In this document: positions 3,900-25,726 of the stretch, one piece after another
How positions within the stretch are numbered: position 1 is the first letter of the stretch
Layout: the number at the start of each line of letters is the position of its first letter
IMG/VR virus record: IMGVR_UViG_3300017917_001051
Coordinates: 1 to 33,811 of that record
From: a virus
Direction: 5' to 3' (one strand)
Length of the DNA stretch: 33,811 nt
The notes under the pieces: generated by a model
What the model saw: the letters and a program-made list of their open reading frames with translations, nothing else
Told to the model about the DNA's origin: nothing
Databases searched by the model: none
Translations under genes and position numbers: made by a program

Positions 3900-4298
3900 A
3901 TGGCAAATCTCTGTGCTCCCGAAAAATTTGGTGCTGATCCAGCAAATATACAATGGCGAGTTGTGCGTGGAGATACTGCAAAATTACGAATAGAATTTTT
4001 TGAAGATGATGAATCTACATACTACGATACTGAGGGATGGACATACAAAGCAACAGCATATGATCAGTCTGGGGATGTATTAGACGCATTAGATTGTGTT
4101 GTAGGATCTGGATATGTTGATATTACTGCTTATCCCTCAGTAACTAAAAATTGGGGATTAAAGTATGCAGCCAATGTTGCAGAACTTCCTTTTGATTTAC
4201 AGGTCATAATTCCAGAAGATACAGAAGACGCTGTATGGACTCCAGTTATTGGAACTATTTATGTTTTGGGAGATATTACTCCTGGAGGAAGTTTATAA
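3900..4298 (+). CDS. Fibre-cassette head protein 'VRGDT' copy 1 (132 aa)
   Basis: The protein MANLCAPEKFGADPANIQWR... is beta-rich and carries VVRGDTAKLRIEFFEDD at about residues 22-38. Products of 14756-15160 (VVRGDTSGFKVYVVDD) and 5893-6270 (YKGDTYEFNIYP) share this opening, so they form a three-member paralog family. The arrangement resembles BppU-type baseplate adaptor N-termini, by analogy only. I chose ATG 3900 over an upstream non-ATG extension because the -10 box lies just before it. Its stop overlaps the next ATG (TAATG). Confidence 0.65.
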   Translation: MANLCAPEKFGADPANIQWRVVRGDTAKLRIEFFEDDESTYYDTEGWTYKATAYDQSGDVLDALDCVVGSGYVDITAYPSVTKNWGLKYAANVAELPFDLQVIIPEDTEDAVWTPVIGTIYVLGDITPGGSL

Positions 4299-4381
4299 TG
4301 GCCGTTGTAAAAGTATCAAACAAAAAAGATAATTTGCCACCAGTAATTAAGGTTGGCGGGAAAGTTTATAAGGTTAAATAG
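4298..4381 (+). CDS. 27-residue basic peptide
   Basis: MAVVKVSNKKDNLPPVIKVG... is a short basic frame linked on both sides: its ATG overlaps the previous stop (TAATG) and it ends 8 nt before the next ATG, overlapping that gene's AGGAGA ribosome site. The tight packing is the main support. It may be a small virion component; no family is known to me. Confidence 0.5.
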   Translation: MAVVKVSNKKDNLPPVIKVGGKVYKVK

Positions 4382-4389
4382 GAGACATC

Positions 4390-4671
4390 ATGGATCATGG
4401 ATTAACAGTTTTGTCAAATACAACAGCAACAAGGCTAACACCAAATGGGAAGCATTCTGGTATTGACATTACAATGCAAAATGTAAATGATTCTGGATAT
4501 GTTTATATTGGTGGATCAGATACAGTATCTTCTACAAATTATGGATTTAGAATTATGCCAAACCACTCTATTTCTATTGAATTAAATGGCAATGACGCTA
4601 TTTATGCAATTGCTTCATCTAATGGCATGTCTCTTGCAGTTCTTAAGGCAAGACTTGAGGTTGGTTCTTAA
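4390..4671 (+). CDS. Small beta-rich virion structural protein (93 aa)
   Basis: MDHGLTVLSNTTATRLTPNG... matches a small beta-structured type familiar from aquatic phage fibre clusters: HSGIDITMQNVN, then GYVYIGGSDTVSSTNYGFR, then a position/scale strand (ISIELNGNDAIYAIAS). It probably sits at a fibre or baseplate surface; the precise role is unknown. ATG follows TAGGAGAC with good spacing. Its stop overlaps the next ATG (TAATG). Confidence 0.6.
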   Translation: MDHGLTVLSNTTATRLTPNGKHSGIDITMQNVNDSGYVYIGGSDTVSSTNYGFRIMPNHSISIELNGNDAIYAIASSNGMSLAVLKARLEVGS

Positions 4672-5135
4672 TGGCACGTTTTACTCATCCAGCGATGGGT
4701 CCATTTGATATATCTATTGATGATGGAAGTGTTACAAGCACAATCCATACATATTCCCCGACTTGGTCTGGAACAGGATTAACATTTACTGGAACTCCAG
4801 CAACTGGGTCATATATTAAAATTGGTAATTTAGTTATAGTACAAATAGATGTTGTCCCAACTACCGTGACAAATTTTGGTACTGGACAGTATTCATTAAC
4901 AATTCCTTTTGCTTCAAAATATCATACAGATGTTTATGGAGGTTCAATTCATGATGTCACACCATCTGGAACAGATCATTACAGCATTAAGGGACATCTA
5001 TCACCATCAAGTATGACAATGACAATTTGGAATATTAAATCTTCTGCAGCAGATGAGCCATTTGATCACAACTCTCCAATTAATCTATCTACTGCTGATA
5101 AATTTCATATGTCTTTTTCATATATCTGTCAATAA
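4671..5135 (+). CDS. Tail-fibre tip-like protein (154 aa)
   Basis: MARFTHPAMGPFDISIDDGS... contains a C-terminal-tip-like module at about residues 25-100: TYSPTWSGTGLTFTGTP, GSYIKIGNLVIVQIDV, then NFGTGQYSLTIPF. This pattern is common at the ends of phage tail fibres and related receptor-contacting proteins. Here it is a separate gene, so the tip may assemble with the collagen-like protein that follows. Translation is coupled through TAATG at the start. Confidence 0.6.
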   Translation: MARFTHPAMGPFDISIDDGSVTSTIHTYSPTWSGTGLTFTGTPATGSYIKIGNLVIVQIDVVPTTVTNFGTGQYSLTIPFASKYHTDVYGGSIHDVTPSGTDHYSIKGHLSPSSMTMTIWNIKSSAADEPFDHNSPINLSTADKFHMSFSYICQ

Positions 5136-5140
5136 TATTG

Positions 5141-5149
5141 TGAGATAAT
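5141..5149 (+). promoter_or_regulatory. Extended -10 promoter (TGA-GATAAT)
   Basis: TGA-GATAAT with ATG 5156 only 6 nt downstream and no ribosome site; predicts a leaderless transcript for the collagen-like gene. Confidence 0.5.
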
Positions 5150-5155
5150 ACAAAC

Positions 5156-5875
5156 ATGGCTATGTCTAAATCCATGGATTTTCCAACAAATAAAAAATCA
5201 AGTTATGCTGCACAAGTTGTAGAAACTCAAAATACTAATGCTGATGTTTTAATTAATTATGTTCCTGTACCTGGCCCAATGGGGCCTCAAGGACCTGCAG
5301 GTATACCTGGACCTCAAGGACCTGCTGGTAAGGACGGAGAGAAGGGCCCAAAGGGCGATAGAGGCACTGCTGGAAAAGACGGGGAAAGTTCTCTGTCTTC
5401 TTCTGGACAACAGGCGGGATGGGGAGCATATTTTAATAAAAAGAGAAATGAAATAAGATTAGGTGCAAACCAGGGTGAAGATGGATGGGTTAGTGTCTGG
5501 GTAGATTCAAAGGGCAGTAATACAAACGAAAAATATCTACCACAAGGATGCACCAGTCTTTGGAATGAGCATCAAAGAATGCTTAATTTTCACGGGCTTA
5601 AAGTAGGATCACAAGTATTTGTAACATACAACTTTGAACTTACTACTTATAGTAATAATACAGAGGTTTGGATTAGAACGCTTTTCCCTAAATCTACCAC
5701 CGAAATTTCACAGTATGTAGCATCACTAAAATATCAGTATGTCTACAATATGTATGTTACACAGCATTTCTTTATTGAGGATGATTCTATGTGGTCTTCT
5801 GGAGCGGTACCGCAAATTAGAGCAGACTACGACTCCTCAGTTTTAATGAATTCAATATATGTATCTGTGATATAA
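5156..5875 (+). CDS. Collagen-like fibre protein (239 aa)
   Basis: A short N-terminal part (1-39) is followed by 13 Gly-X-Y triplets at about residues 40-78, rich in GPQ, GPA, GKD and GEK, then a C-terminal globular domain (about 79-239) rich in aromatic residues. Gly-X-Y repeats form trimeric collagen-like stalks in phage fibres; the N-terminus should attach to the particle and the C-terminus may bind the host. Proline in the Y position (GIP) is the classic target of prolyl-4-hydroxylases, relevant to the oxygenases at 9981-13475. ATG at 5162 is a possible alternative start. Confidence 0.8.
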   Translation: MAMSKSMDFPTNKKSSYAAQVVETQNTNADVLINYVPVPGPMGPQGPAGIPGPQGPAGKDGEKGPKGDRGTAGKDGESSLSSSGQQAGWGAYFNKKRNEIRLGANQGEDGWVSVWVDSKGSNTNEKYLPQGCTSLWNEHQRMLNFHGLKVGSQVFVTYNFELTTYSNNTEVWIRTLFPKSTTEISQYVASLKYQYVYNMYVTQHFFIEDDSMWSSGAVPQIRADYDSSVLMNSIYVSVI

Positions 5876-5876
5876 T
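5868..5876 (+). promoter_or_regulatory. Extended -10 promoter (TGA-TATAAT)
   Basis: TGA-TATAAT. ATG 5881 is 4 nt away; ATG 5893 follows GGAGGAA and is the likelier start. The promoter overlaps the end of the collagen-like gene. Confidence 0.55.
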
Positions 5877-5892
5877 TTACATGGAGGAACCT

Positions 5893-6270
5893 ATGGCATT
5901 TCCAGGCGAGTTAAATATTAATTATTATAAAGGTGATACCTACGAGTTTAACATATATCCAAAACTTGCAGGTGGATCAGCAATGGATCTAACTGAGTAT
6001 ACAGTTGCTTTTTCTATTGCAGAAACAAGAGGTTCTTCTACAATTATAGAATGTTATTCAAATATACCATCAGATGCTGGAACACAACAATTCCCAAATC
6101 ATATTAAATGTGTTATTACTCCAGAAGCAGGTGAGCAACTTGATGCAACAAAAACATATTATTATGATGTTCAAATAAAATCAAATCAAATATTACCATA
6201 TAAAAAGATTTATACAATTTTAACAGGAACAGTATTTGTCACTGAAGAGGTTACACCTTCACTACCATGA
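5893..6270 (+). CDS. Fibre-cassette head protein 'KGDT' copy 2 (125 aa)
   Basis: MAFPGELNINYYKGDTYEFN... is the second member of the family at 3900 and 14756; the shared part is the beta strand ending in GDT followed by hydrophobic alternation. I chose ATG 5893, not 5881, because GGAGGAA precedes it and the paralogs also begin MA. It heads the second fibre cassette, and its stop overlaps the next ATG (ATGA). Confidence 0.6.
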   Translation: MAFPGELNINYYKGDTYEFNIYPKLAGGSAMDLTEYTVAFSIAETRGSSTIIECYSNIPSDAGTQQFPNHIKCVITPEAGEQLDATKTYYYDVQIKSNQILPYKKIYTILTGTVFVTEEVTPSLP

Positions 6271-6866
6271 CAACAAATTTAGATGTAGTATTTTCAAATG
6301 AAGATGTTCTGGTTGTAGGCCCACCAAGTTCAATAAGTGTTGATTTAGATTTAGGTGCAAAAGGCCAAAGAGGAAGTCAAATATTTTTTGGTATGGAAAA
6401 GCCAACCGAGTTTGATGAATTTCCAGAAGGTGCGCCATTACCATATGATGTGTTTTATAACTTAGGTCCACTTGATGAAGAATATTTGAGTGTATATCAA
6501 TATATTTTAGAGCCAGGCACTGGATTAGTTTGGAAAAAATTATTTAATTTAATGCCTAATGAATTAAGAAAAAACTATTCTTTTGAATTTACAAATGGAC
6601 AAGCAACAAAAACAATAAATATTGCAGCAGACATACTTCCTTTAAATTTAGTTGGATCTTTACCATCGGCAGAAAATTTTAATATTGTTTATACTATCGA
6701 AAATGACAAACCAGTATCATCGTCTATGGAAATCCAGGTAGGCACAAACCCAATAACTAGTTATCTTGAACTAACTATTACGTTGACAGCAATACAATAC
6801 AGCGATGGGGAATGGCAAAATTTGGATGGCACTAGAACAGTGCACGTTGATATTCGGGTGGTATAA
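6267..6866 (+). CDS. Virion structural protein with short Gly-rich motif (199 aa)
   Basis: The product starts MTTNLDVVFSNEDVLVVGPP and has a short GAKGQRGS motif near residue 30, then a two-domain beta-rich body. It resembles structural proteins next to tail-fibre genes in aquatic phages; no enzyme motif is present. It overlaps its upstream neighbour by ATGA and its end overlaps the next promoter (6859-6867). Role: probably a fibre or baseplate component. Confidence 0.6.
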   Translation: MTTNLDVVFSNEDVLVVGPPSSISVDLDLGAKGQRGSQIFFGMEKPTEFDEFPEGAPLPYDVFYNLGPLDEEYLSVYQYILEPGTGLVWKKLFNLMPNELRKNYSFEFTNGQATKTINIAADILPLNLVGSLPSAENFNIVYTIENDKPVSSSMEIQVGTNPITSYLELTITLTAIQYSDGEWQNLDGTRTVHVDIRVV

Positions 6867-6867
6867 T
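6859..6867 (+). promoter_or_regulatory. Extended -10 promoter (TGG-TATAAT)
   Basis: TGG-TATAAT ahead of the GTG-started gene at 6885; AGGTGA near 6874-6879 could serve as its ribosome site. Confidence 0.5.
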
Positions 6868-6884
6868 TCTGGCAGGTGATGTAG

Positions 6885-7334
6885 GTGGCTTCTGAAAATA
6901 TAGGTAATATATATATAACACAGATCCCAGGATATGAGGATGCTGCAGATATTCAGGCTGCCCTAAGACTTTATCATTATGGAAGTACTACAGCACCATC
7001 AGTAGATGAAATTGGTGTTACTAATGGAATTATTGCAAATTCTATAGCAGGACATTTAAAGGGACTAGACGATAGAGTTGATTTTATTGAAACAGATCCA
7101 GCACGTTCTTCATATTCTGCCACACAACCTAGTGGAGATTCACTAACTAATGGTTATATTTGGGTTGATTCTACAACATCTATAGGAAATATTCCAACTT
7201 ATGGAACTTCTACATATTCCGCTACTGCTCCTAGCACAGATTTAGTTGTAGGAGCATTATGGGTTGATTCTGACTCTTCCCCGTTAAAAATGTATGTATG
7301 GTCTGGAACTGAATGGCGGGTGATTGGTGAATAA
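6885..7334 (+). CDS. Tail-fibre attachment-type protein (149 aa)
   Basis: Begins (GTG) MASENIGNIYITQIPGYEDA and has ADIQAALRLYHYGS, then AGHLKGLDDRVDFIE, and two repeats of the form SYSATQPSG...GYIWVDS and TYSATAPST...ALWVDSD (about residues 77-95 and 110-129). The repeat ends in a WSGTEWRVIGE strand, as in adaptor proteins at fibre bases. An in-frame ATG is not available because the nearby ATG is followed directly by a stop; AGGTGA supports GTG. It overlaps the next small gene by one base. Confidence 0.6.
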   Translation: MASENIGNIYITQIPGYEDAADIQAALRLYHYGSTTAPSVDEIGVTNGIIANSIAGHLKGLDDRVDFIETDPARSSYSATQPSGDSLTNGYIWVDSTTSIGNIPTYGTSTYSATAPSTDLVVGALWVDSDSSPLKMYVWSGTEWRVIGE

Positions 7335-7450
7335 TGTCTCAAGAAAATACCAATCAAATTTTAAAAGAAAGGGCAATAGCAAAACTAGTTGCTTTAGGAT
7401 TAACAGAAGCAGAATTAAGAGCATTGGGGTTGACATCTGATGCCAATTAA
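7334..7450 (+). CDS. 38-residue helical peptide
   Basis: MSQENTNQILKERAIAKLVA... contains [19 protein letters not shown], a short helix-turn-helix-like pair of helices. It overlaps the stop of the previous gene (TAATG) and runs 11 nt into the next gene, which argues for coupling in a three-gene unit. It could be a small chaperone or adaptor for the fibre protein that follows; this is a guess. Confidence 0.5.
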   Translation: MSQENTNQILKERAIAKLVALGLTEAELRALGLTSDAN

Positions 7451-8918
7451 TAATGATGGAAAAGTAGCATATATCTATAAAGACGGAACATGGTATTCAA
7501 TTAGTGGTGCAGTTAATACAAATGCATCATATACATGGACTGCATCTCAAACCTTTTCATCTCCAGTAACATTTGAAGAAGTTTTAACAGCAAAGGCTGG
7601 TATTAATAATTTTCAATCTCCAGAAACTCGTGATTTAGCAATACCATCACCAGCATCAGGACTTGTTTGCTTTGTTAGACAGTCAACAACTGGCGGTACA
7701 GCAATAAATCAACTTCAGTATTTCCACAATGGTCAATGGAAGTATATAAATGGTTATTCAACATTAAATGCAAAATTAGGAAACTATACAGTTACTGCTT
7801 CTGATGCAGGTAAGGTTATAACAGTAGATAGTTCTTCTGCTTCAGTTATTAGTATACCGTCGAATTCTACAGAAACAATTGATAATGGATATAAGGTAGA
7901 AGTTATAAGATTAGGTTCTGGAAGTGTTACTATTGCTGGAGCATCTGGAGTTACATTAAATTCTAAAGGAACAAGTGCTGCTATAGATGGACAGTATGGA
8001 AAGGTTACTGTTTTAAAGTTAGATACAAATACTTGGGTTGCTTACGGAGATATTGCAGAAGGTATAGTTACACCAACACCAACACCAACACCACCAACAC
8101 CAACTCCGACACCAACACCAACTCCGACACCAACACCAACACCAACTCCGACACCAACACCACCAACACCAACTCCAACACCAACACCAACACCAACCCC
8201 AACACCAACTCCAACCCCAACACCGACACCGCCAACACCGACACCAACACCAACACCAACATGTCAATATGATTACATAATGCCAAACTTGATTGGACAA
8301 TCAGAATCTGCTTCAAGTCAAATAAATCAGCACGGTTATGTGTATGAATCTACATACTATTATGATAATTCTCAAGGTGCAACTGCTGAAAATAATGGAA
8401 AAATTGCTGCCCAAGATCCTTCTCCAGGTACTTATATTCCTGGAACTAACTGTGAATATAATGGATATGGTGCTTCAATTACAGTTTATCGATATAGTAG
8501 CACTCCAACACCAACACCAACCCCTACACCAGGTACTTCAGACTGTATAGATGACGATGCAGGTTATTGTATAAATGTTGATGCAAATGGTTATGGAGAT
8601 TTTTATCAATATCAGACTAGTCCAAGCGGACAATTTACTTGCCCACCAAGATATGTTGGAAGAAGTTTCTGTGGACTTCCAACACCAACACCAACCCCAA
8701 CACCGACACCAACTCCTACACCAGAGCCAGCGCCAACCCCAACACCGACACCAACTCCTACACCAACACCACCAACACCAACCCCAACACCAGAGCCAGC
8801 GCCAACCCCAACACCAACACAATGTATACCAGATGGATCATATAGATTTATACCATGTGGATACAATGTTTGCGTATATGACAATTGTGGAAATTTCTTA
8901 GGATATACTGGAACATGA
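7440..8918 (+). CDS. Modular fibre protein: PASTA domain and Pro-Thr linkers (492 aa)
   Basis: Residues 1-100 are an anchor-like part (ATG 7440). Residues about 107-205 form a beta domain also found at the end of the 18964-21174 product. Then comes a Pro-Thr linker (nt 8070-8261), a PASTA-like domain (about 274-352; [15 protein letters not shown]), a short linker, a four-Cys module ([10 protein letters not shown]...), a long Pro-Thr linker (8679-8820) and a final four-Cys module. PASTA domains bind peptidoglycan and beta-lactams in bacterial kinases and PBPs, so this protein probably contacts the host wall. The linkers are 6-bp tandem repeats, hence slippage-prone, and they are candidate hydroxylation substrates for the enzymes downstream. 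Confidence 0.75.
8070..8820 (+). repeat. Pro-Thr-coding microsatellite tracts
   Basis: Three tracts built on CCAACA-type hexamers (8070-8261, 8501-8532, 8679-8820) code PT units. The two long tracts contain interruptions (PPT, EPAP), with imperfect copies suggesting repeated expansion. Confidence 0.8.
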
Positions 8919-8924
8919 TATACT
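8916..8924 (+). promoter_or_regulatory. Extended -10 promoter (TGA-TATACT)
   Basis: TGA-TATACT overlapping the stop of the preceding gene. It would open the enzyme island with a short leader containing AAAAGGAA before ATG 8944. Confidence 0.55.
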
Positions 8925-8943
8925 TTAATAAAAGGAATTTTTA

Positions 8944-9753
8944 ATGAAAATAGATAAAAGATTATATTTTTTGCATATACCAAAAACTGGCGGTATGTCT
9001 GTAATGGTTAATTTTGGACAATTTCTAACTAATAACGATATTGCAAAATATCCTCCTAGTTCTCCACCACATTCAGATGTTTCTAATGAATATGCTTTTA
9101 TTCAGGGGCATTTAGGAAGATATCCAATTGAAAAAGTAGATAATCTATCTTTGGCAACAATTATAAGAAATCCTTTAGATCGTGCAATTAGTTATTTTTT
9201 ATATATATATGATAATGTATTAAAAGATAAAAAAGAATATTTAGAAATTGAAAAGTTTGAAGATAAATTAAAATATCATTTATTTGAAGATATTGAATAT
9301 ATTTCACATAGAAATATTCAATCAAAATTTATTTGTTCTAAACCATTAGAAAATAGATATAAAGATTTTCCATTAAATTTAGATATACTTCGTAAAAATA
9401 AATCAAAAAATTGGGGATTGCAAGAAATAGAAATTAATTTTGATTTAGTTAAAAGTTATATAGATTCTTTTGATATTATAAATACAACTGATAATTTATT
9501 AATATTTATTGAAAATTTAGTAAAATGGTTTAATGAAAATTATTCAGATATTACTTTTAATAATAAAATAAATTATAATTTAATAGTAAATCAATCAAAA
9601 GTAAATATTAATAATGAAATATATACAACTGAAAAATTAAAACCTTTTTTATCTGATGAAGATATTGCAAAATTTTTAGAATTAAATAGTATAGATTTTG
9701 ATTTATATGAATATGTATATAAAAAGGAAAATAATAATGGATCCAAAAAATAA
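8944..9753 (+). CDS. Sulfotransferase (PAPS-dependent, Sulfotransfer_2-like)
   Basis: The 269-residue protein has FLHIPKTGGMSV at about residues 9-20, the 5'-phosphosulfate-binding loop of sulfotransferases, and RNPLDRAISYF at about 75-85 with R75, R80 and S83 in the usual 3'-phosphate-binding pattern. The enzyme transfers sulfate from PAPS to an acceptor hydroxyl; the acceptor cannot be told from the sequence. It opens the island of modifying enzymes, is extremely AT-rich unlike the fibre gene before it, and overlaps the next gene by 17 nt. SD AAAAGGAA. The window shows no PAPS-making gene, so host PAPS would be needed. Confidence 0.8.
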   Translation: MKIDKRLYFLHIPKTGGMSVMVNFGQFLTNNDIAKYPPSSPPHSDVSNEYAFIQGHLGRYPIEKVDNLSLATIIRNPLDRAISYFLYIYDNVLKDKKEYLEIEKFEDKLKYHLFEDIEYISHRNIQSKFICSKPLENRYKDFPLNLDILRKNKSKNWGLQEIEINFDLVKSYIDSFDIINTTDNLLIFIENLVKWFNENYSDITFNNKINYNLIVNQSKVNINNEIYTTEKLKPFLSDEDIAKFLELNSIDFDLYEYVYKKENNNGSKK

Positions 9754-9979
9754 AAATAGATTAGAAAGATATAAAGAAATGTTAGGAGAAACTAGGCCGT
9801 GGGATTTAATTAATCCTAATACAGAATGGGTATCTAGTGAGGTAGCAGAAAAAAGATATTCTATATGCAAAGAGTGTCCAGAGTTAATTAACCTAACCAA
9901 ACAATGTAAAAAATGTGGTTGTTTTATGGTTGCTAAAACTAAATTAGAAAAAGCAGTATGTCCAGTAGGGAAGTGGTAG
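9737..9979 (+). CDS. Small Cys-cluster protein, copy B (80 aa)
   Basis: Six Cys, C44-x2-C47, C57-x2-C60-x-C62 and C75, end in CPVGKW, the same layout as the product of 2150-2350 (66 aa). The N-terminal 40 residues contain WDLINPNTEW. ATG 9737 follows AAAAGGAAA and replaces an implausible longer frame that would start inside the sulfotransferase. It lies between the sulfotransferase and a 2OG oxygenase gene. A small zinc domain is expected; a role as adaptor for the neighbouring enzymes is inference. Confidence 0.7.
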   Translation: MDPKNKNRLERYKEMLGETRPWDLINPNTEWVSSEVAEKRYSICKECPELINLTKQCKKCGCFMVAKTKLEKAVCPVGKW

Positions 9980-9980
9980 T

Positions 9981-10580
9981 ATGTATAAAGAAGAGATTGC
10001 TCCAGGAATAGTAATTTATTCAAATGTTATTAATAATTATGAAACATTAATTAATGATATTGAAGAAGGAATAGTTTCTGCAAATATAACATGGAATAGT
10101 GCTGGAGTTTATGATGGAGAAAACAAACCACCTCAAAATAAAAAAACAAGAGATACCGATTCAGTTTCTGTTCCATATCAAGGTTATATAGATGAAGATT
10201 ATAAAAATTTACTTGATGCTTTTTATAAAACATTATCAAATATATTTTTTATATCATTTGATAAATTAGAATTAGATTATAAGCATATGTATGGAATTGA
10301 TTTTATTGAACATTCAAATTATGATATTTTAAAATATGGCAAAAATCAAAAATTTACAAATCATATAGATGATCATCAAAAATTTCCTAGAAGAATTTCT
10401 ACAGTATATTATATTAATGAAAATTATTCTGGAGGCGAAATTCTTTTTCCTAGATTTAATATATCATATAAACCAAAAGCAAATCAACTTTTAATATTTC
10501 CATCTAATTATGTTTATAATCATTCTGTTAACGAGGTAACTGATGGTACAAGATATGCCGTAGTTAGTTGGATAAAATGA
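9981..10580 (+). CDS. 2OG-Fe(II) oxygenase, prolyl-hydroxylase type (199 aa)
   Basis: The double-stranded beta-helix oxygenase signature is complete: HID (H128, D130) and distal H181 for iron, and R191 ten residues after the distal His for 2-oxoglutarate. The core reads RRISTVYYIN, GGEILFPRFN, LLIFPSNYVYNH, GTRYAVVSW. Such enzymes hydroxylate using O2 and 2-oxoglutarate. The HxD...H-x9-R/K spacing is that of prolyl-4-hydroxylases, so a proline or other side chain in a fibre protein is plausible; the substrate is not shown. It starts right after the Cys-cluster gene and overlaps the next gene by ATGA. Confidence 0.8.
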   Translation: MYKEEIAPGIVIYSNVINNYETLINDIEEGIVSANITWNSAGVYDGENKPPQNKKTRDTDSVSVPYQGYIDEDYKNLLDAFYKTLSNIFFISFDKLELDYKHMYGIDFIEHSNYDILKYGKNQKFTNHIDDHQKFPRRISTVYYINENYSGGEILFPRFNISYKPKANQLLIFPSNYVYNHSVNEVTDGTRYAVVSWIK

Positions 10581-11140
10581 AAGATCCTAAAATATTTAAA
10601 AATATTTTTTCTGAAAAAGATTTTAAAAAATTAGAATCTTATTTTTTAAATAGAAAAAAATTAGAAACAGAATATGATAATTCATTTGGAAGATATTGGT
10701 TTTCAGATCCAATACTTTCTGAATATTCAGATAAAATTCTTCCATTAGTTAGAGAATTTTTTGAAGATGATTCAATACTACCGTCATATTCTCTTTTTGC
10801 ACATTATTGTGGAGAAAATGCTAAATTGTGGGCACATAAAGATGATAATGCTTGTACATATACTATGGATTTTTGTACCTATCAAAAAGATGCTTGGGAT
10901 TTATGGGTAGAGGGTAGACCATATAAACTAATGCCAAATGAAGCACTGGCGTATTATGGAAATGATAATATTCATTGGAGAAAAAATTTTCCTAATCCAG
11001 AATCTAATTTTGTTGGAATGATTTTTTTTCATTTTGTTAAACCAGATCACTGGTGGTATACTAAAGGACCAGATTATTTAGATGTAATAAGAAAAAAAAT
11101 ATCTGAAAATGAATGGCAACAAAAAAAGAAGATAATATGA
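10577..11140 (+). CDS. Divergent 2OG-Fe(II) oxygenase-like protein (187 aa)
   Basis: ATG 10577 overlaps the upstream stop (ATGA). AHKDD carries the probable HxD pair (H87, D89) and NIHWR the distal His (H133); no Arg or Lys stands ten residues further on, so 2-oxoglutarate binding must use another residue, such as the Arg in HWR. Other conserved-looking pieces are DAWDLWVEG, PNEALAYYG and FFHFVKPDHWWYT. This set looks like a family of oxygenases found in aquatic phages. The iron ligands support activity, but the substrate is unknown. Confidence 0.65.
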   Translation: MKDPKIFKNIFSEKDFKKLESYFLNRKKLETEYDNSFGRYWFSDPILSEYSDKILPLVREFFEDDSILPSYSLFAHYCGENAKLWAHKDDNACTYTMDFCTYQKDAWDLWVEGRPYKLMPNEALAYYGNDNIHWRKNFPNPESNFVGMIFFHFVKPDHWWYTKGPDYLDVIRKKISENEWQQKKKII

Positions 11141-11925
11141 TTAATTTTTTTTCAGATTTTATTATTCCAGCATATGATAAATTATTACCAAATTCAGTAT
11201 TTGAATATACTTTTGGAGAAGAAATTAGAAAAAATTCTTTTATTGATAAACCAGAATTAAATAATTTTAATTATAAATTAAATAATTATGGACATCGATC
11301 TGATGATTTTAAAATAAATCATAGTGGTAAACATGTTTTATTTGCAGGATGTTCTACAACATTTGGAGAAGCATTACCATATATGCAAAATTGGTCTGGT
11401 AAATTATATAAAAAACTATCTTTAAAATATAAACTTGATAATTATTTTTGTTTGGGATTTTTAAATGGATTTACATCCCACATTATTTATAACATAATGT
11501 TATATTGTGAAGAATTTGGTTCTCCAGAAATAATTTTTTGTCTTTTTCCAGAATCAGAAAGAACAGCAAAATATAAAGATAAAAATTTAGTTATTTATTA
11601 TGAAAAAACTAAAGAATATAAGACTATAGGACAACTAGACTGTTTTAAATCAATATTATTTTTAGAAAAATATTGCGAGTTAAAAAATATAAAATTATTA
11701 TGGACAACATGGGATAATGAAGATTTATTATTTTATAAAAATAAAAAATTTAATAATTTTCTTTTTGTAGAACCTTCTGATATAAAACTTATGTCAAATA
11801 ATAAAAATGAAAAAAATGATCCTTTTTATAATATAGGTAGAGATAATGCTCATCCAGGATTATGGTATTCAGATGGTCTTGCAAATATTTTTTTAAAAGA
11901 AATGGAGAGCAGATATGTTTTATAA
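11137..11925 (+). CDS. SGNH-hydrolase-like protein (262 aa)
   Basis: FAGCSTTFGEAL at about residues 69-80 holds the probable nucleophile S73 in a GxS motif, and DNAH near the C-terminus (D236, H239) fits the DxxH block of SGNH/GDSL hydrolases. These enzymes act as esterases, or as O-acyl transferases in some families. I chose ATG 11137, which overlaps the upstream stop as ATGA, over an upstream ATG at 11113. In this island it could add or remove acyl groups on a glycan or fibre, but that is a guess. Confidence 0.7.
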   Translation: MINFFSDFIIPAYDKLLPNSVFEYTFGEEIRKNSFIDKPELNNFNYKLNNYGHRSDDFKINHSGKHVLFAGCSTTFGEALPYMQNWSGKLYKKLSLKYKLDNYFCLGFLNGFTSHIIYNIMLYCEEFGSPEIIFCLFPESERTAKYKDKNLVIYYEKTKEYKTIGQLDCFKSILFLEKYCELKNIKLLWTTWDNEDLLFYKNKKFNNFLFVEPSDIKLMSNNKNEKNDPFYNIGRDNAHPGLWYSDGLANIFLKEMESRYVL

Positions 11926-11998
11926 AATTAAAAAAATATTTTTAAAAATATATTTTAAATTTAAAAAACCATTAAAGCCAAAAGACTTTATTTATTAA
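11915..11998 (+). CDS. 27-residue basic peptide
   Basis: MFYKIKKIFLKIYFKFKKPL... is nearly all Lys, Phe, Ile and Tyr, so an amphipathic, membrane-seeking helix is possible. GGAGAG upstream of the ATG and an 11-nt overlap with the preceding gene support translation. In such AT-rich DNA a chance frame of this kind is likely, hence low confidence. Confidence 0.35.
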   Translation: MFYKIKKIFLKIYFKFKKPLKPKDFIY

Positions 11999-12000
11999 TA

Positions 12001-12009
12001 TGATATAAT
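12001..12009 (+). promoter_or_regulatory. Extended -10 promoter (TGA-TATAAT)
   Basis: TGA-TATAAT before the 54-residue gene, with AAAGGAAAA near 12019-12027 as the ribosome site. Confidence 0.5.
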
Positions 12010-12029
12010 TTAATAAATAAAGGAAAATT

Positions 12030-12194
12030 ATGAATAATTTGGTAAACTCAAAAAAGTTACAAGAAAGGTATGATGCATGTAAAAGTTGTACCTTTTTTGT
12101 TAAATTTACAAAAGAGTGTTCAAAAAATAAAGAGTTTTTAGATAAATATTTACATCGGAGTGAATCTACATGTCCAATAAACAAATGGAGTTAG
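12030..12194 (+). CDS. Small Cys protein, degenerate copy C (54 aa)
   Basis: MNNLVNSKKLQERYDACKSC... has C17-x2-C20, C30 and C48 but lacks the CxxCGC core of copies A (2150) and B (9737), while still ending CPINKW. AAAGGAAAA precedes the ATG. It overlaps the next oxygenase gene by 25 nt, so the two are probably coupled. It seems to be a worn-down relative that keeps four possible metal ligands. Confidence 0.6.
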   Translation: MNNLVNSKKLQERYDACKSCTFFVKFTKECSKNKEFLDKYLHRSESTCPINKWS

Positions 12195-12838
12195 ACTATA
12201 AAAAAATAGCACCTGGAATATTTATGTATTATAATGTTTTTAATGATATAGATTTATTTTTAAGCAATTTAATAAAAAGTTTTGAAGAAGGAACTTTAAT
12301 GTGGCACGAAAAACCACACATTATTTCAAATAGTAAAGCATTTATAGATAAAAATATTCGTGATTTAAAAACATTTACTATACCTTATAAATTTACAAAA
12401 GTTTTACTTAATACACATCATACACCAAAACAAACATTTAATAATTTTGTTGGAAATATTCTTTATAATATTTTAAATCCTATTGAAAAGCATTATTCTT
12501 TAAATAATAATAATATTAAAACTTTTTCACACGATGCATATTATTTATTTAAATATGAAAAAAACAATTTTTTTAAAAGTCATGTAGATGATGGACCATT
12601 ATTTCCAAGAGTAATTTCTGTTTTATATTATTTAAATTCTGATTATGAGGGTGGAGAAATAGAGTTTCCAGAATTTAATATAAAATGTAAACCAGAAAAA
12701 AATAGTGTATTGGTATTTCCTTCTAATTTTATTTATCATCATGAAGTTCATCCAATAACAAATGGAACCAAATATTCAATTGCAACCTGGTTAATGTATA
12801 ATGATTACGAGAAGGTTTTAAAAGATGTCAACTTATGA
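12170..12838 (+). CDS. 2OG-Fe(II) oxygenase with P4H-type Lys (222 aa)
   Basis: The fold is clear: HVD (H138, D140), distal H191 and K201 ten residues later. Lys at that place is what collagen prolyl-4-hydroxylases use to bind 2-oxoglutarate, whereas the sister at 12825 has Arg. LLNTHHTPKQTFNN, PRVISVLYYLNSDYEGGEIEFPEF and VLVFPSNFIYHH are shared almost word for word with that sister. The substrate is unknown; proline-rich fibre protein is the main hypothesis. ATG 12170 lies inside the preceding small gene. Confidence 0.8.
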   Translation: MSNKQMELDYKKIAPGIFMYYNVFNDIDLFLSNLIKSFEEGTLMWHEKPHIISNSKAFIDKNIRDLKTFTIPYKFTKVLLNTHHTPKQTFNNFVGNILYNILNPIEKHYSLNNNNIKTFSHDAYYLFKYEKNNFFKSHVDDGPLFPRVISVLYYLNSDYEGGEIEFPEFNIKCKPEKNSVLVFPSNFIYHHEVHPITNGTKYSIATWLMYNDYEKVLKDVNL

Positions 12839-13475
12839 TATAGAAAATAATAGAGTAAATTTAGGTTTGGGAATATATGTTTATAAAAATGTAGTAACTG
12901 ATGATGAAGAATTTTTAAAAAATTTAGAAGATGCATTTAATACTTCTATAGTGTTGGATGACATAGAAACTATAAAAAAAGCAAATGAAGATAAACCAGA
13001 AAGTGTAGATCGAGATTTAGAAACATTTACTATACCCTATAAACTATCAAAAGTTTTACTTGATACACATCATACACCAAAACAAGCATTTAACAATATT
13101 GTTGCAAATAAAATTTATAATGTTTTAGATATTATCGAAAAAGATTATTGTTTTAATATTTATAATATGCCATTACCACCAATTCATGAGCCATATTATA
13201 TTTTAAAATATACAAAAAATAATTTTTTTGATAATCACATAGATGCAACCTTTACACATCCAAGAGTTGTTTCATTGTTATATTATTTAAATTCTGATTA
13301 TGAGGGTGGAGAAATAGAGTTTCCAGAATTAGGAATATTATATAAGCCAGAATCTAATGATGTTCTTGTTTTTCCATCTAACTTTATTTATATGCATAAT
13401 GTTCATCCAATTAAAAATGGCACAAGATATGTAATAGTTACTTGGTTATTAAATAGTGAAATTATAACAAAATAA
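12825..13475 (+). CDS. 2OG-Fe(II) oxygenase, tandem paralog (216 aa)
   Basis: H138, D140, distal H191 and R201 complete the iron and 2-oxoglutarate site. Protein and DNA are close to 12170-12838: a 53-nt stretch is identical (12623-12675 and 13278-13330). The two genes overlap by 14 nt and look like a recent tandem duplication whose 2OG-binding residue has since diverged (Lys against Arg). It is the last gene of the island and is followed by a strong bidirectional terminator. Confidence 0.8.
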   Translation: MSTYDIENNRVNLGLGIYVYKNVVTDDEEFLKNLEDAFNTSIVLDDIETIKKANEDKPESVDRDLETFTIPYKLSKVLLDTHHTPKQAFNNIVANKIYNVLDIIEKDYCFNIYNMPLPPIHEPYYILKYTKNNFFDNHIDATFTHPRVVSLLYYLNSDYEGGEIEFPELGILYKPESNDVLVFPSNFIYMHNVHPIKNGTRYVIVTWLLNSEIITK

Positions 13476-13518: not shown

Positions 13519-14079
13519 TTATTTTGGAAATTGTAACATCAATTCTTTAGTTTTTGATGTAATACCATGCCACGCAGTCCAGTTTTTTCCACCGTCTGTC
13601 ATATAATAGGCAATTTGTGCATTTAGCACGGGATTAAAGAGTTCAACATTGGACTCTAAATTAAACTTATCTCTACGGTCAGGACCTAGGTCTCCAATCA
13701 TATTTATTTGAAATAAGCCATAAGAACTATCTCCAGTTCTTTTACTGTTATTAAGGGCTAATGGTCTACCGCCAGATTCTTTCTTAGCAACAGCCCAAGC
13801 CTCCTTAAGATTTTGACCTTCAAAACCCACTAAAGCAAGTAGATTTTTAAGATCTTTGTCAGATAGAGTTATAGCATTTTTGTATTTTTCTAACTGATCT
13901 TCTTTAGCCTTAGAAAGACTTTCGGCCACTTGCGTGGCCCCTTTATCTTCCGTTGACACGATATTACTATCGTTTAATCGGTTTTCAGAAGCATTAGCGA
14001 CATTTGACCAAACAGCAAACATCGTTAATATGCTGAGTGTACCAATGATTTGCCTGTTATTATTCATAAAGTTAATCAT
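13519..14079 (-). CDS. Exported lysozyme/transglycosylase-like protein (186 aa)
   Basis: An N-terminal signal sequence (about 10-30, cleaved after VANA) precedes a linker and an SLT/lysozyme-like domain (about 85-186). E101 in AVAKKESGG is the likely catalytic acid, followed by YGLFQIN (the usual GLFQI motif) and NAQIAYYM. It should cut peptidoglycan glycan strands. An exported muralytic enzyme would be a lysis enzyme or a tail-associated one; the signal sequence favours export through Sec. I chose ATG 14079 because AAGGAGG lies directly before it; a longer frame to 14124 starts in the promoter leader. It is the only leftward gene among the late genes. Confidence 0.75.
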   Translation of the reverse strand: MINFMNNNRQIIGTLSILTMFAVWSNVANASENRLNDSNIVSTEDKGATQVAESLSKAKEDQLEKYKNAITLSDKDLKNLLALVGFEGQNLKEAWAVAKKESGGRPLALNNSKRTGDSSYGLFQINMIGDLGPDRRDKFNLESNVELFNPVLNAQIAYYMTDGGKNWTAWHGITSKTKELMLQFPK

Positions 14080-14099
14080 AGTTTCCTCCTTAGAAACAA

Positions 14100-14124
14100 A
14101 TGACACCTTGTTAAGGGGTGTCAT
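14100..14124 (-). promoter_or_regulatory. 5'-leader hairpin
   Basis: ATGACACC (14100-14107) pairs with GGTGTCAT (14117-14124), almost at the predicted transcript start. It could stabilise the lysin mRNA or serve as an operator. Confidence 0.55.
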
Positions 14125-21206: not shown

Positions 21207-22841
21207 ATGGCAGGTAAACTTGGAAGAAAAGCAGGTCATCAATCATGGCCAAATGATGTAACAATTACAACAGCAACAGATGTCGGCACTAATCGTCCTT
21301 ATGCAGCATCAGCAGCATCATCAGAAGCAGGCGCATCTGGGGTTGGTGGAGCAGTAAGTTTGGCTTGGTCCTTACCCACTGGGTCTGCTGCAGCATCATC
21401 TTATACAATTACTACTACTCCTTCAACTTATTCAAAAACGGTATCAGGAACAAGTACAACATTTGAAGGTCTAGCATCAGCCACAGCATATACATTTACT
21501 ATTAAAGCAAATAACGCTGTAGGTTCTTCAATAGGATCTACATCTTCATCTGTAACTGCTACAACAGTTCCTCAAGCACCTTCAGGTGCATCTGCATCAA
21601 ATGTTGGAACAGGTAGAGCATGGAATAATGGTGCTGCATCAGTTTCATTTACTGGTAATGCAACAGGTGGAAAGGCTATTAGCACATATACAGCAATTCC
21701 AAGTTCTGGAACTTCTGCAACTGGAGCAACTTCTCCAATTGTTGTGGGTGGATATGCAGCAGGAGCAACTCCAACTTTTACAGTAACTGCTACAAATGCT
21801 AACGGAACATCATTAGCATCCTCTGCAACATCTTCAGTTACTATCACAACAGTTCCAGATACACCAGCAGCACCAAGCGTTTCTTCTCCAATTCCTTCAG
21901 CAGCAGCAAATACTGCAGGAACAACAACAGACAGCATTTCATGGAGTGCTCCATCAAATGGTGGTAGTTCAATAACATCTTATAACTGGCAATCATCAGA
22001 TGCTAAATCTGGTAACACCTCAGCAACATCTGTCTCTGTAAATCAAGAAGGTGGAACTTCACAAACATATCAGGTTCAAGCATGTAATGCAAACGGATGT
22101 GGAAATTACTCTTCATCATCTCAATCTATTACAACATTTTCATTTACACCGTTTTCATTTACACCGTTTTCATTTACACCGTTTTCATTTACACCATTCG
22201 GTGCCTTTGGTTTTGCACCATTCGGTGCTTTTGGTGCTTTTGGTGCCTTCGGTGCTTTTGGTGCTTTTGGCGCCTTCGGTGCTTTTGGTTTTACACCAGC
22301 ACCACCAAGATACGGTCATATTAATCAAGTTGGTGCAAGTTTTTATTTTAATGTATTTTCATTAAATTATAACACTCAAGTGGTTATGGCACCAGTACCA
22401 GGACAACCAGATACCACAAAACCTGCTGGAGAATTAGTTGTTGGAGATAAATTAAAAGCCCTGGATCTTGGCGATGTTCCTGCTAATTTAAGAGAAGCAA
22501 TATTTACAGCAGATGTTGATATGACAAGAGTTGTTGAAACAACAATTGTTAATTTAAATTATCATGATGAAACCATATTTATTTATGTAGACGGAGATCT
22601 TTTTTCTCGAAATCACTGGATTTTTGCTAAAAAAGATGGAGTAGTTAAGTTTATTAAATCTGATGCTATAGATACAACATATCAACGTTATTCTTTAGAA
22701 GATAACGCATGGGTTAATATTGAAATTGTTGAACAGGTAGAGTTAGCAATGACAAAGGTTAGTATTAACTGTGAGCCATATGACAATTTCTTTACAAAGA
22801 AAATGTTGGTATTTGACGGACCAGATTTACCTACAGAATAA
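21207..22841 (+). CDS. Fibronectin-III / FG-repeat / Hint-like protein (544 aa)
   Basis: Three fibronectin type III-like domains lie at about 45-118, 123-215 and 217-310. They are followed by a low-complexity linker (311-365) of FSFTP units and GAF units, then a domain (about 392-544) with AGELVVGDKLKALD, SRNHWIFAKKDG and a C-terminal CEPYDNFFTKKMLVFDG. The last part looks like a Hint (intein/hedgehog) domain, but the first Cys/Ser and the final His-Asn are not present, so splicing or cleavage is doubtful. Hint-like ends are known in phage tail proteins. AAAGGAG precedes the ATG. Confidence 0.7.
   Translation: MAGKLGRKAGHQSWPNDVTITTATDVGTNRPYAASAASSEAGASGVGGAVSLAWSLPTGSAAASSYTITTTPSTYSKTVSGTSTTFEGLASATAYTFTIKANNAVGSSIGSTSSSVTATTVPQAPSGASASNVGTGRAWNNGAASVSFTGNATGGKAISTYTAIPSSGTSATGATSPIVVGGYAAGATPTFTVTATNANGTSLASSATSSVTITTVPDTPAAPSVSSPIPSAAANTAGTTTDSISWSAPSNGGSSITSYNWQSSDAKSGNTSATSVSVNQEGGTSQTYQVQACNANGCGNYSSSSQSITTFSFTPFSFTPFSFTPFSFTPFGAFGFAPFGAFGAFGAFGAFGAFGAFGAFGFTPAPPRYGHINQVGASFYFNVFSLNYNTQVVMAPVPGQPDTTKPAGELVVGDKLKALDLGDVPANLREAIFTADVDMTRVVETTIVNLNYHDETIFIYVDGDLFSRNHWIFAKKDGVVKFIKSDAIDTTYQRYSLEDNAWVNIEIVEQVELAMTKVSINCEPYDNFFTKKMLVFDGPDLPTE
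22137..22300 (+). repeat. FSFTP 15-mer and GAF 9-mer tandem repeats
   Basis: Four 15-nt repeats (22137-22196; TTTTCATTTACACCG with one base different in the last) are followed by about ten imperfect 9-nt units (GGTGCTTTT and variants) at 22197-22300. The near-identical DNA copies imply expansion by slippage. Confidence 0.8.
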
Positions 22842-22865: not shown

Positions 22866-23609
22866 ATGAAACAAAAATATTCAAAAATTCATTTTATTTC
22901 TACTATGCCAAAAAGTGTTGATGTTTTTCCAGAACCACAACCAGCGTATAAACATATACCACAATGGTACAAAAAAATAGAATCATTTTATAATTCAGAT
23001 CCTACACCTCAAAATGGTGTACAACATTTAACAGTAAAAAGATGTGTTGCTTTTTTAGATATGCTTTCAACAGGATATTTTATTCTTTGTCCTTTTGATA
23101 TTTATATAGACACAACAGACAATAAAAAAGAATTTGTAATTCCTGCAGCACTACAAGGTTTACAAAATACTAATATAAAGCAATTTATAGGTATACATGA
23201 TTTAAAACAAGTTGAAGGATATCCTTTTGAAAAAGATTTATATTTAGAATATTTATTTAGAATTCATCCAATTTGGATTGTTAAAACTGAACCAGGAGTA
23301 AGTTGTTTGTTTATAAATCCTCAACATCATGAAAATTCACCATTATCTGCTATTTCTGCAGTAATTGATACGGACGGCTATCCTTCCGATGGATTATTGT
23401 CATTTTTAGTTAAAAAAGATTTTAAAGGTTTTATTAAAAAAGGAACACCATTGGTACAAGTAATACCATTTAAAAGAGATGATTATGAATCTAAAATTAT
23501 TATTAATCAAGAAGAATATGATAAAACTAAAACTTTTAGTTTAAAAGTTAGAAGTGTTTTTAATTCTGGTTATAAAAAATATTTTTGGAAAATGAAAAAA
23601 TATACATAA
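22866..23609 (+). CDS. Unknown conserved-looking phage protein (247 aa)
   Basis: The product has PEPQPAYKHIPQWYKKIESF near the N-terminus, PFLD-type and FILCPFDIYID segments, and a C-terminal block VIDTDGYPSDGLLSFLVKKD followed by KGFIKKGTPLVQVIPFKRDD. This reminds me of a family of aquatic-phage and bacterial proteins, possibly DUF6065; that name is tentative. No catalytic residues are evident and the fold may be beta-rich. It is leaderless by promoter placement and ends shortly before the reductase gene. Confidence 0.55.
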   Translation: MKQKYSKIHFISTMPKSVDVFPEPQPAYKHIPQWYKKIESFYNSDPTPQNGVQHLTVKRCVAFLDMLSTGYFILCPFDIYIDTTDNKKEFVIPAALQGLQNTNIKQFIGIHDLKQVEGYPFEKDLYLEYLFRIHPIWIVKTEPGVSCLFINPQHHENSPLSAISAVIDTDGYPSDGLLSFLVKKDFKGFIKKGTPLVQVIPFKRDDYESKIIINQEEYDKTKTFSLKVRSVFNSGYKKYFWKMKKYT

Positions 23610-23692: not shown

Positions 23693-25726
23693 ATGTTTGA
23701 TTTTTTTAGTTTTCGTTTGTCTGAAGATTTTATAAATGAGTATAAATCAAAGGAACCACCATTTGGTTTTACTGATGCAGGTGGAAATTCGTTGGGAGAG
23801 ATTACATTTATTCGTACCTACTCCCGTATGAAAGAAGACGGAACTAAAGAAAGATGGTATGAGGTTTGTCGTCGTGTAATCGAGGGTATGTATTCAGCAC
23901 AAAAGAATCACGCAAAAGAAAACAGACTACCATGGAATGACTATAAGGCTCAGTCATCTGCAAAAGAAGCATTTGATAGAATGTTTAATTTAAAGTGGAC
24001 ACCACCTGGACGTGGTATGTGGGCATTTGGAACTCCACTTACTATGGAAAAAAGAAACTCTGCTGCTTTACAAAATTGTGCTATGGTCTCAACTAAAGAT
24101 ATAGACCGTAACGATCCAGGTCAATTATTTGGCTGGGTTATGGATGCCCTGATGATGGGTGTAGGTGTAGGGTTTGATACTTTAGGCGGGGAGAAAAATC
24201 TACCTATTTATGAACCTACAGAACCACCACAGGTATATGAAATACCAGATACTCGTGAAGGTTGGGTAGAGTCTGTTAGATTATTAATTAACTCATTTTT
24301 AAGACCTAATATGTATATCCAGGAGTTTAACTATAACCTTATTAGGCCATTAGGAGCCCCTATTAAAGGGTTTGGGGGCACAGCAAGCGGTCCTGCACCA
24401 CTTATACAGTTGCATAAGCAGATCAAGTCTGTAATCGGCGGTAGAGCAGGAGAAACCCTTGACTCAAGAGCAATAGTAGATATCGTTAACCTTATTGGTA
24501 CATGTGTGGTATCAGGAAATGTTAGACGATCCGCTACCTTGGCTTTAGGTGGAGCAGAAGATCAAGACTTTATGAATTTGAAGAATGCTGAGGTTTTTCC
24601 TGAGCGTAATTCATTTGATCCAGAAAATCCAGGTTGGGCGTGGATGTCAAATAACTCCATTGCTGCGACGGTAGGTACAAAGTACGAAGATTACGTAGAC
24701 CTAATCGTTAATAACGGAGAACCAGGATTTATCTGGCTTGATGTAGCACGTAACTATGGTCGTATGGCTGATCCAAAGGATGGCAAAGACTATCGTGTTA
24801 TGGGCTTTAATCCATGTGCAGAACAGCCGTTGGAATCATACGAATTATGCACTTTGGTCGAGGTACATTTAAATCGTCATGAATCCAAGGAAGACTTCCT
24901 ACGAACACTCAAATTTGCATATCTCTACGGCAAAACAGTTACATTGATTCCTACTCATTGGCAACAAACGAATGGAATCATGCAGCGTAATCGTCGTATT
25001 GGAACATCTCTTACAGGTATTGCATCATTCTCAGACAAATTTGGCTTGCCTGTTGTGCGTGAATGGATGGACGAAGGATATAAAACTATACGTAAATATG
25101 ATCATAGTTATTCTGAATGGCTATGTGTTCGTGAGTCCATTAGAGTCACAACTGTTAAGCCATCAGGGTCTGTATCAATTCTTTCTGGCGCAACACCAGG
25201 AGTACATTGGGCACCAGGCGGAGACTATTTCTTAAGAGCAATTCGCTTTGGGAATACCGACCCAATGATTCATTTGTTCAAGGCTGCAGGGTATAAGATG
25301 GAGTCTGACCTTGTATCTGCAAATACAACTGTCGTTTATTTCCCAGTTCATTCTGGACATCCACGATCTGAAAAAGATGTAACATTATTTGAGAAGATTG
25401 CGCTTGCTGCTACTGCTCAGAAATATTGGTCAGATAATGGCGTATCTGTAACGCTTTCATTTGACAAAGAAACTGAAGCAAAGCATGTAGCGCCTGCACT
25501 TCATATGTATGAAGGACAATTAAAAGCAGTCTCATTTTTGCCAATGGGAAATACCGTTTATCCTCAGCAACCATATACACAAATAACTAAAGAAGAATAC
25601 GATAGTTATATTGGACAAATTAAAAAGATTGATTGGTCTGCTATTTATGACGGTGCTGAAAATCTGGAAGCGCAGGGAGAAATGTACTGCACTACAGATG
25701 CTTGTGAAATAAAAATATCTTCGTAG
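23693..25726 (+). CDS. nrdJ: Class II (adenosylcobalamin) ribonucleoside-triphosphate reductase
   Basis: The 677-residue enzyme fits the monomeric class II type (Lactobacillus leichmannii RTPR). C129 in NSAALQNCA and C386 are the likely redox pair; C375 in NPCAE is the thiyl-radical cysteine, with E377; C375 and C386 are 11 residues apart, as in RTPR. TVKPSGSVSILSG follows, and C666/C671 at the tail keep the five-residue spacing of the shuttle pair. It reduces ribonucleotides to deoxyribonucleotides using B12 and probably host thioredoxin. It is shorter than the Lactobacillus enzyme (739). It lies alone among structural genes with its own promoter. Confidence 0.9.
   Translation: MFDFFSFRLSEDFINEYKSKEPPFGFTDAGGNSLGEITFIRTYSRMKEDGTKERWYEVCRRVIEGMYSAQKNHAKENRLPWNDYKAQSSAKEAFDRMFNLKWTPPGRGMWAFGTPLTMEKRNSAALQNCAMVSTKDIDRNDPGQLFGWVMDALMMGVGVGFDTLGGEKNLPIYEPTEPPQVYEIPDTREGWVESVRLLINSFLRPNMYIQEFNYNLIRPLGAPIKGFGGTASGPAPLIQLHKQIKSVIGGRAGETLDSRAIVDIVNLIGTCVVSGNVRRSATLALGGAEDQDFMNLKNAEVFPERNSFDPENPGWAWMSNNSIAATVGTKYEDYVDLIVNNGEPGFIWLDVARNYGRMADPKDGKDYRVMGFNPCAEQPLESYELCTLVEVHLNRHESKEDFLRTLKFAYLYGKTVTLIPTHWQQTNGIMQRNRRIGTSLTGIASFSDKFGLPVVREWMDEGYKTIRKYDHSYSEWLCVRESIRVTTVKPSGSVSILSGATPGVHWAPGGDYFLRAIRFGNTDPMIHLFKAAGYKMESDLVSANTTVVYFPVHSGHPRSEKDVTLFEKIALAATAQKYWSDNGVSVTLSFDKETEAKHVAPALHMYEGQLKAVSFLPMGNTVYPQQPYTQITKEEYDSYIGQIKKIDWSAIYDGAENLEAQGEMYCTTDACEIKISS

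Follow-up and report, generated by a model that had tools for sequence, protein, structure and literature searches.

Prolyl-hydroxylase-like genes co-vary with proline-rich fibre repeats in a group of phages: a candidate cassette for fibre modification

In algae and plants, the (Ser/Thr-Pro)n repeats of hydroxyproline-rich glycoproteins are hydroxylated, then glycosylated. Oxygenases that depend on 2-oxoglutarate (2OG) and Fe(II) are widespread in aquatic phages, and we know of no established substrate for these phage enzymes. In a structure-based survey, phage proteins matched EGLN3, a human prolyl hydroxylase, more often than any other human protein (PMC12774648). In the Skp1 pathway of Dictyostelium and Toxoplasma, the prolyl 4-hydroxylase (P4H) PhyA acts first, followed by Gnt1, PgtA and AgtA, and N-acetylglucosamine (GlcNAc) is added onto the hydroxyproline made by PhyA (PMC3515798), while in mucin-type proteins of Trypanosoma cruzi and Dictyostelium alpha-GlcNAc is added to Thr (PMC3769586). 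The DNA described here, from an aquatic phage, is a 33.8-kb virus record of IMG/VR (IMGVR_UViG_3300017917_001051, the whole of which is referred to as the window), in which a gene for a Pro-Thr repeat fibre is followed by an island with a sulfotransferase gene, four oxygenase-like genes and a gene for an SGNH-like hydrolase, an arrangement already described in an earlier, sequence-only reading and found as such (Table 1). That reading proposed that the island modifies the fibre, with a collagen-like fibre as another possible substrate: the former agrees with our results, as the oxygenases track the Pro-rich repeats of the adjacent fibre, while the latter does not.

The oxygenases are present mainly when the fibre gene just upstream has Pro-rich repeats. 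Since a first set of loci had been drawn through the oxygenase, a new sample was seeded on a neutral transglycosylase-like gene, to which portal-selected records, examined over nearly their whole length, were added. A fibre was considered Pro-rich if any 40-residue window held at least 25% Pro, "2OG-type genes" comprised the oxygenase 1-3 family, the divergent family and cupin-type genes, and de-replication kept loci more than 0.1 apart on the neutral-gene tree. Among the neutral-gene-seeded loci, Pro-rich fibres occurred 40 times with and 8 times without a 2OG-type gene, as against 2 and 21 times for other fibres (P=1.4e-9), or 19/4 versus 2/9 following de-replication (P=5e-4). In 14 independent sister pairs differing in fibre type, 11 were concordant, two were ties, and one was discordant, its fibre being cut by the contig end. 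Fibres at a second locus, which precedes the ribonucleotide reductase gene, show the same pattern, 2OG-type genes accompanying 4/4 Pro-rich and 0/19 other fibres (P=1e-4; the four positives are related). When whole records were subjected to a rotation test, 7 of the 33 oxygenase clusters had a Pro-rich gene at most three genes upstream, against 0.76 expected (p<=0.0005). The rule is wider than Pro-Thr, as FFPPFF, FFSPPG, PVAPT and VTPP repeats behave alike. Equal occurrence of the enzymes in phages devoid of Pro-Thr or collagen-like fibres, the outcome that the earlier reading had named as contrary to its proposal, is thus contradicted for Pro (40/8 versus 2/21). For collagen the result is different: the collagen-like gene was found at 26 loci with 2OG-type genes and at 19 without (P=0.19), so it was rejected as the driver of the association and is probably not the substrate.

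Not only the presence of oxygenases but the whole enzyme set is most likely matched to the repeat of the fibre. Fibres that are Thr-rich but have no Pro repeats (G023, G024, L407 and L457, of which G023 and G024 are related records) keep a gene of the PF11397 transferase family and lack the oxygenase, and G023, G024 and L407 also keep a DUF6171 gene. Across the sample, PF11397 tracks the Thr content of the fibre (12/8 versus 5/46, P=3e-5; P=0.037 when de-replicated). In raw counts that include related contigs, Thr/Pro fibres are accompanied by one to three oxygenases, by glycosyltransferases in 37/47 cases and by PHROG 7084 genes (P7084) in 0/47, whereas Phe/Pro fibres have up to ~12 oxygenases, P7084 in 32/36 cases and a glycosyltransferase in 1/36; de-replicated at one locus, these contrasts give P=0.017 and 0.010.

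Sequence profiles and a structural model place the oxygenases in the prolyl-hydroxylase branch of the 2OG-Fe(II) dioxygenases. Oxygenases 1 to 3, all matching PF13640, have the HxD...H iron triad and a 2OG-binding R/K ten residues past the distal His, bearing out the earlier statement that at least three of them show the ligand spacing of P4Hs. A profile of 42 relatives matched almost exclusively protein (prolyl, lysyl) hydroxylases in the PDB: Bacillus P4H (2e-18), P3H1 (4e-13) and algal P4H (5e-10), as well as PHD2 and LH3; PiuC-type hydroxylases were matched too, and AlkBH8 at only 2.6e-4. Oxygenase 1, the one that was modelled (predicted local distance difference test, pLDDT, 96.4), adopts the double-stranded beta-helix fold of the P4H/prolyl hydroxylase (PHD) type, and its best PDB fold is 6t8m (7e-12, template-modelling score ~0.7), the Dictyostelium PHD PhyA, which is the Skp1 prolyl hydroxylase. 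The next folds are algal P4H with and without (Ser-Pro)5 (3gze) and Pseudomonas putida P4H (4iw3), with further matches to human PHD2 and the chlorella virus enzyme vCPH (5c5t). In the oxygenase tree, oxygenase 1 sits in a clade of 31 rows, 29 of which adjoin Pro-rich fibres, and the tandem paralogues 2 and 3 (53% identity) pair with a support of 99; Pro-linked enzymes are clustered yet found in several clades, with 26 changes versus 46 expected by shuffling in a quick tree. The divergent enzyme had no Pfam match, and its profile matched nothing in the PDB; over 15 relatives its H90, D92 and H136 are invariant and R138 nearly so, within HxD and HWR motifs.

The neighbourhoods of relatives also hold candidate transferases for the attachment of sugars. 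In other viral contigs the fibre cluster runs from a collagen-like gene through small fibre genes to the Pro-rich fibre, DUF6171, the oxygenase(s), sugar-related genes and, on the minus strand, the transglycosylase-like gene, and the repeats themselves vary among phages: (PT)n, (PVAPT)n, (VTPP)n, (FFPPFFPF)n or (FFSPPGFFAPPG)n. Genes after the oxygenase encode PF11397 (1.9e-36), O-fucosyltransferase-like (POFUT2, 8e-5), nucleotide-sugar epimerase (1e-73), radical SAM/SPASM and cupin/JmjC proteins. PF11397 exceeds its cut-off in 17/17 relatives' records tested and in 0/14 control genomes, and can lie beside the oxygenase (for example in L120, L131, L275 and L115, the last with the fibre at 4026-6119, the oxygenase at 6417-7013 and PF11397 at 7015-7959). 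DUF6171, usually encoded between fibre and oxygenase in relatives, is fused to PF11397 in L158, L159 and L450 (L158:1141-2325; L450:11392-12594); the fusion accompanies a Pro-Thr fibre in L158 and L450, and thereby ties DUF6171 to the fibre glycosylation process. An apparent DUF6171 match within every PF11397 protein was rejected as profile drift from the genuine fusion in L158, and the models were rebuilt. In L120 (1463-2398) and L131 (5440-6384), a radical SAM/SPASM protein sits between the oxygenase and the PF11397 gene; the radical SAM/SPASM genes of the islands suggest an additional peptide modification.

How, then, does the island compare with the described systems? As in the Skp1 pathway, the nearest fold of oxygenase 1 is a Dictyostelium PHD and, in relatives, the PF11397 gene directly follows the oxygenase, with O-fucosyltransferase-like and nucleotide-sugar genes added in some; Gnt1 belongs to this same family (PF11397/GT60). 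Unlike the Skp1 pathway, the proposed substrate is a phage fibre repeat, the acceptor of the phage transferase could be hydroxyproline or Thr, the system is known here from its genes, and the window contains no PF11397 gene, so that the pair typical of a Skp1-type pathway is seen in relatives and not there. PBCV-1 vCPH is likewise a virus-encoded P4H of the same fold (5c5t), but of an algal virus with no reported fibre-linked cassette. Chlamydomonas P4H-1 bound to (Ser-Pro)5 (3gze) is among the top fold matches of oxygenase 1, although the algal and plant system is a eukaryotic secretory pathway with unrelated glycosyltransferases. The T. cruzi and Dictyostelium mucins, eukaryotic surface proteins modified with no oxygenase step, resemble the Thr-rich phage fibres that have a PF11397 gene without oxygenase. 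Cyanophage 2OG-Fe(II) oxygenases (PHROG 61; EGLN3-like, PMC12774648) share the superfamily and the triad, but are only 23-37% identical, and two of their neighbourhoods, when examined, had no Pro-rich fibre. By analogy, the Skp1 and hydroxyproline-rich glycoprotein systems are the most likely models for how the cassette operates, membership of either not being claimed.

On these results, the island is probably a cassette dedicated to post-translational modification of the fibre, in which predicted prolyl hydroxylation comes first and decoration second, through enzymes that suit the repeat. During infection, oxygenase 1, and probably oxygenases 2 and 3 as well, would use Fe(II), 2OG and O2 to hydroxylate Pro in the (Pro-Thr)n stalks of the fibre, and the new hydroxyls, together with those of Thr, would become anchors for further groups: sugars in the relatives, attached by PF11397/GT60, O-fucosyltransferase-like and other transferases, and, as a guess, sulfate or another group in the phage of the window. 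A stiff stalk of the polyproline-II, hydroxyproline- or mucin-like kind would result. A broader proposal is put forward more tentatively: phages may encode all that is needed to turn the fibres of their virions into hydroxyproline glycoproteins, with P4H-like enzymes that read the Pro-rich repeats and PF11397 or other transferases that glycosylate the product, the set being swapped together with the fibre, such that fibre-surface chemistry, and not the sequence alone, evolves as a receptor-binding or anti-defence trait, the Phe-Pro fibres with up to ~12 oxygenases being a second chemistry. In open-licence papers we found no description of phages with a prolyl hydroxylase cassette linked to a fibre. 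The co-variation names a concrete candidate substrate, the adjoining Pro-rich fibre, and makes the question testable. If the proposal is true, this would be, as far as we have found, the first phage prolyl hydroxylation and the first Skp1-type hydroxylation-glycosylation pair outside eukaryotes, and fibre chemistry could vary without a change in fibre sequence.

Could the same genes serve another function? SGNH, sulfotransferase and epimerase genes are what one would expect in a polysaccharide cluster, and jumbo cyanophage clusters with 2OG oxygenases have been interpreted as glycan or metabolite cassettes (PMC7824862); the oxygenases, sulfotransferase and SGNH protein, with the glycosyltransferases of relatives, might accordingly remodel the lipopolysaccharide or capsule of the host, or make a small molecule. 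We regard this as unlikely: it does not predict that oxygenases track fibre Pro, that a second locus agrees or that gene content follows the repeat residues, the oxygenase profile matches protein hydroxylases, and the founding members of PF11397 modify hydroxyproline or Thr in proteins. Slightly less likely still is mere linkage, by which an AT-rich cargo block would travel with the hypervariable 3' end of the fibre gene and the Pro match would be functionally meaningless. The island, at 77% AT, does occupy a hypervariable site at which fibre and cassette are exchanged together, but two distinct loci obey one rule with oxygenases of different clades and repeats of different types, PF11397 is retained without the oxygenase beside fibres that have Thr and lack Pro repeats, and the independent pairs run 11:1. 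A host-protein target for the oxygenases, such as EF-Tu is for P. putida P4H, or a role in oxygen or iron sensing, appears improbable: the close fold match to the P. putida P4H-EF-Tu complex (4iw3) and the matched PiuC-type hydroxylases are in favour of this reading, yet it gives no reason for the co-variation with fibre repeats, nor for arrays of up to ~12 paralogues beside Phe-Pro fibres. Modification or repair of DNA or RNA by AlkB/TET-like enzymes is hardly plausible, since the weak Tet_JBP (0.005-0.06) and AlkBH8 (2.6e-4) matches score far below those to prolyl hydroxylases in sequence (2e-18) and fold, and the genes, although some cyanophage homologues lie near denV, sit here in a fibre cluster.

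Several observations nevertheless weigh against a fibre-modification cassette, or restrict its scope. Eight Pro-rich fibres have no oxygenase (for example L406, L466 and L473), of the 33 oxygenase clusters in complete records 26 have no Pro-rich gene next to them, linkage alone can swap neighbouring genes as a block, and the window, which is a fragment, holds no glycosyltransferase. Although the P4H of PBCV-1 hydroxylates Pro-containing peptides in vitro, no hydroxyproline was detected in the virion (PMC7019647). Cyanophage oxygenase homologues adjoin uvsW and denV, with no Pro-rich gene within 6 kb, so they are unsupported as members of the same cassette; since most clusters also lie elsewhere, the oxygenase superfamily has other jobs. 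The co-occurrence of Pro-Thr fibres and enzymes that the sequence-only reading expected across phages holds within the present group, including the second locus (4/4 versus 0/19), but in unrelated viruses only ~12 of 106 Pro-Thr-run genes have any island enzyme nearby. A universal link between Pro-Thr runs and hydroxylases was therefore rejected: the rule is not general, being restricted to this phage group and a few others.

Table 1. Features of the fibre cluster and island in the window
Feature	Position	Strand	Evidence
Collagen-like fibre gene, member of the fibre cluster	5156..5875	+	Pfam Collagen 2e-6; 13 G-X-Y triplets
Pro-Thr repeat fibre, proposed substrate	7440..8918	+	77 Pro + 88 Thr of 492 aa
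First (Pro-Thr)n run	8070..8261	+	Sequence
Second (Pro-Thr)n run	8679..8798	+	Sequence
Carbohydrate-type sulfotransferase	8944..9753	+	PHROG 3347 1.8e-7
DUF6171 Cys4 (zinc-ribbon-like) small protein	9698..9979	+	Pfam DUF6171 8.5e-7, PHROG 13558 3.6e-16
Oxygenase 1, prolyl-4-hydroxylase-like 2OG-Fe(II)	9981..10580	+	PF13640 1.6e-16
Divergent 2OG-Fe(II)-type oxygenase	10568..11140	+	PHROG 2954 2.7e-12
SGNH/GDSL-like hydrolase	11113..11925	+	GCSTTFG and DNAH motifs
Oxygenase 2, prolyl-4-hydroxylase-like	12170..12838	+	PF13640 4.6e-16
Oxygenase 3, tandem paralogue of oxygenase 2	12825..13475	+	PF13640 1.2e-14
Transglycosylase-like gene, neutral seed	13519..14124	-	PHROG transglycosylase 0.0045

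Portal, head protease and capsid genes occupy the right end of the record, which appears to be a fragment. A DNA comparison of the window with ~50,000 known phage records gave no match, nor did an Rfam scan; its portal has close relatives, up to 94% identical, in contigs of up to ~120 kb. A ribonucleotide reductase gene (23693-25726; PHROG 367, 1.8e-143) lies between fibre and head genes, a position conserved in relatives. The island itself, closed on the right by the transglycosylase-like gene as a conserved boundary found at the same place in relatives, has a GC content of 22.9% versus 34.2% for the window, in line with the AT-richness noted earlier.

Within the island, the sulfotransferase carries both phosphate-binding motifs (5' and 3') for 3'-phosphoadenosine 5'-phosphosulfate, HIPKTGG and RNPLDRAIS, kept in 11 relatives; a Pfam search of the protein gave no match, and its family profile matches heparan-sulfate 6-O-sulfotransferase (HS6ST; 1.7e-5). 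Island sulfotransferases are rare (the window, L459 and L472), and the SGNH gene too occurs in few islands. The latter is assigned as SGNH-like from its motifs, the block I Ser (GCSTTFG) and the block V DxxH (DNAH), and a weak GDSL-esterase profile match (E=0.003); G-C-S-x-T and the His are invariant over 13 relatives, and Pfam gave no match. That either protein acts on the fibre is a guess. The DUF6171 gene has an uncertain start codon, with an internal ATG near 9737. It is the one small Cys-cluster protein of the island, for which several had been announced; a second DUF6171 gene lies beyond it, at 2150-2350 on the minus strand.

Among the fibre genes, the N-terminal part of the Pro-Thr fibre matches a minor tail protein (PHROG 8780, 9e-14), and its PASTA-like domain (E=9.8e-5) falls slightly short of the Pfam cut-off. 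The collagen-like gene, placed 4 kb upstream by the earlier account, ends in fact ~1.6 kb before the Pro-Thr gene and 3.1 kb before the sulfotransferase gene. In L164 (7841-9436), a contig with a related portal, a small gene, an oxygenase and the divergent oxygenase come after a multi-PASTA fibre with an APPVAPVDPP stretch. Fibre proteins in the window (21207-22841), L148 (4910-6556) and L158 (6741-8060) end in a Hint/intein-like domain, assigned by eye (in L158, for example, CVEENTLVDT...LLIHNK); fibronectin-like and low-complexity repeats precede this domain, which possibly serves in self-cleavage or attachment of the repeat region.

PHROG 7084 genes are common beside Hint-bearing fibres, whether Pro-rich or not. 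In L157, L158, L163, L186 and L191 they are interleaved with up to 11-12 different 2OG oxygenases in tandem arrays, which follow (FFPPFF)n or (FFSPPG)n fibres and lie 5' to the transglycosylase-like or ribonucleotide reductase gene. The PHROG 7084 protein is unsupported as another oxygenase, as it has no PDB profile match and is untied to Pro-rich fibres, and as the confident model of the copy at 22866-23609 of the window (pLDDT 87) gives only a weak dUTPase-like fold match.

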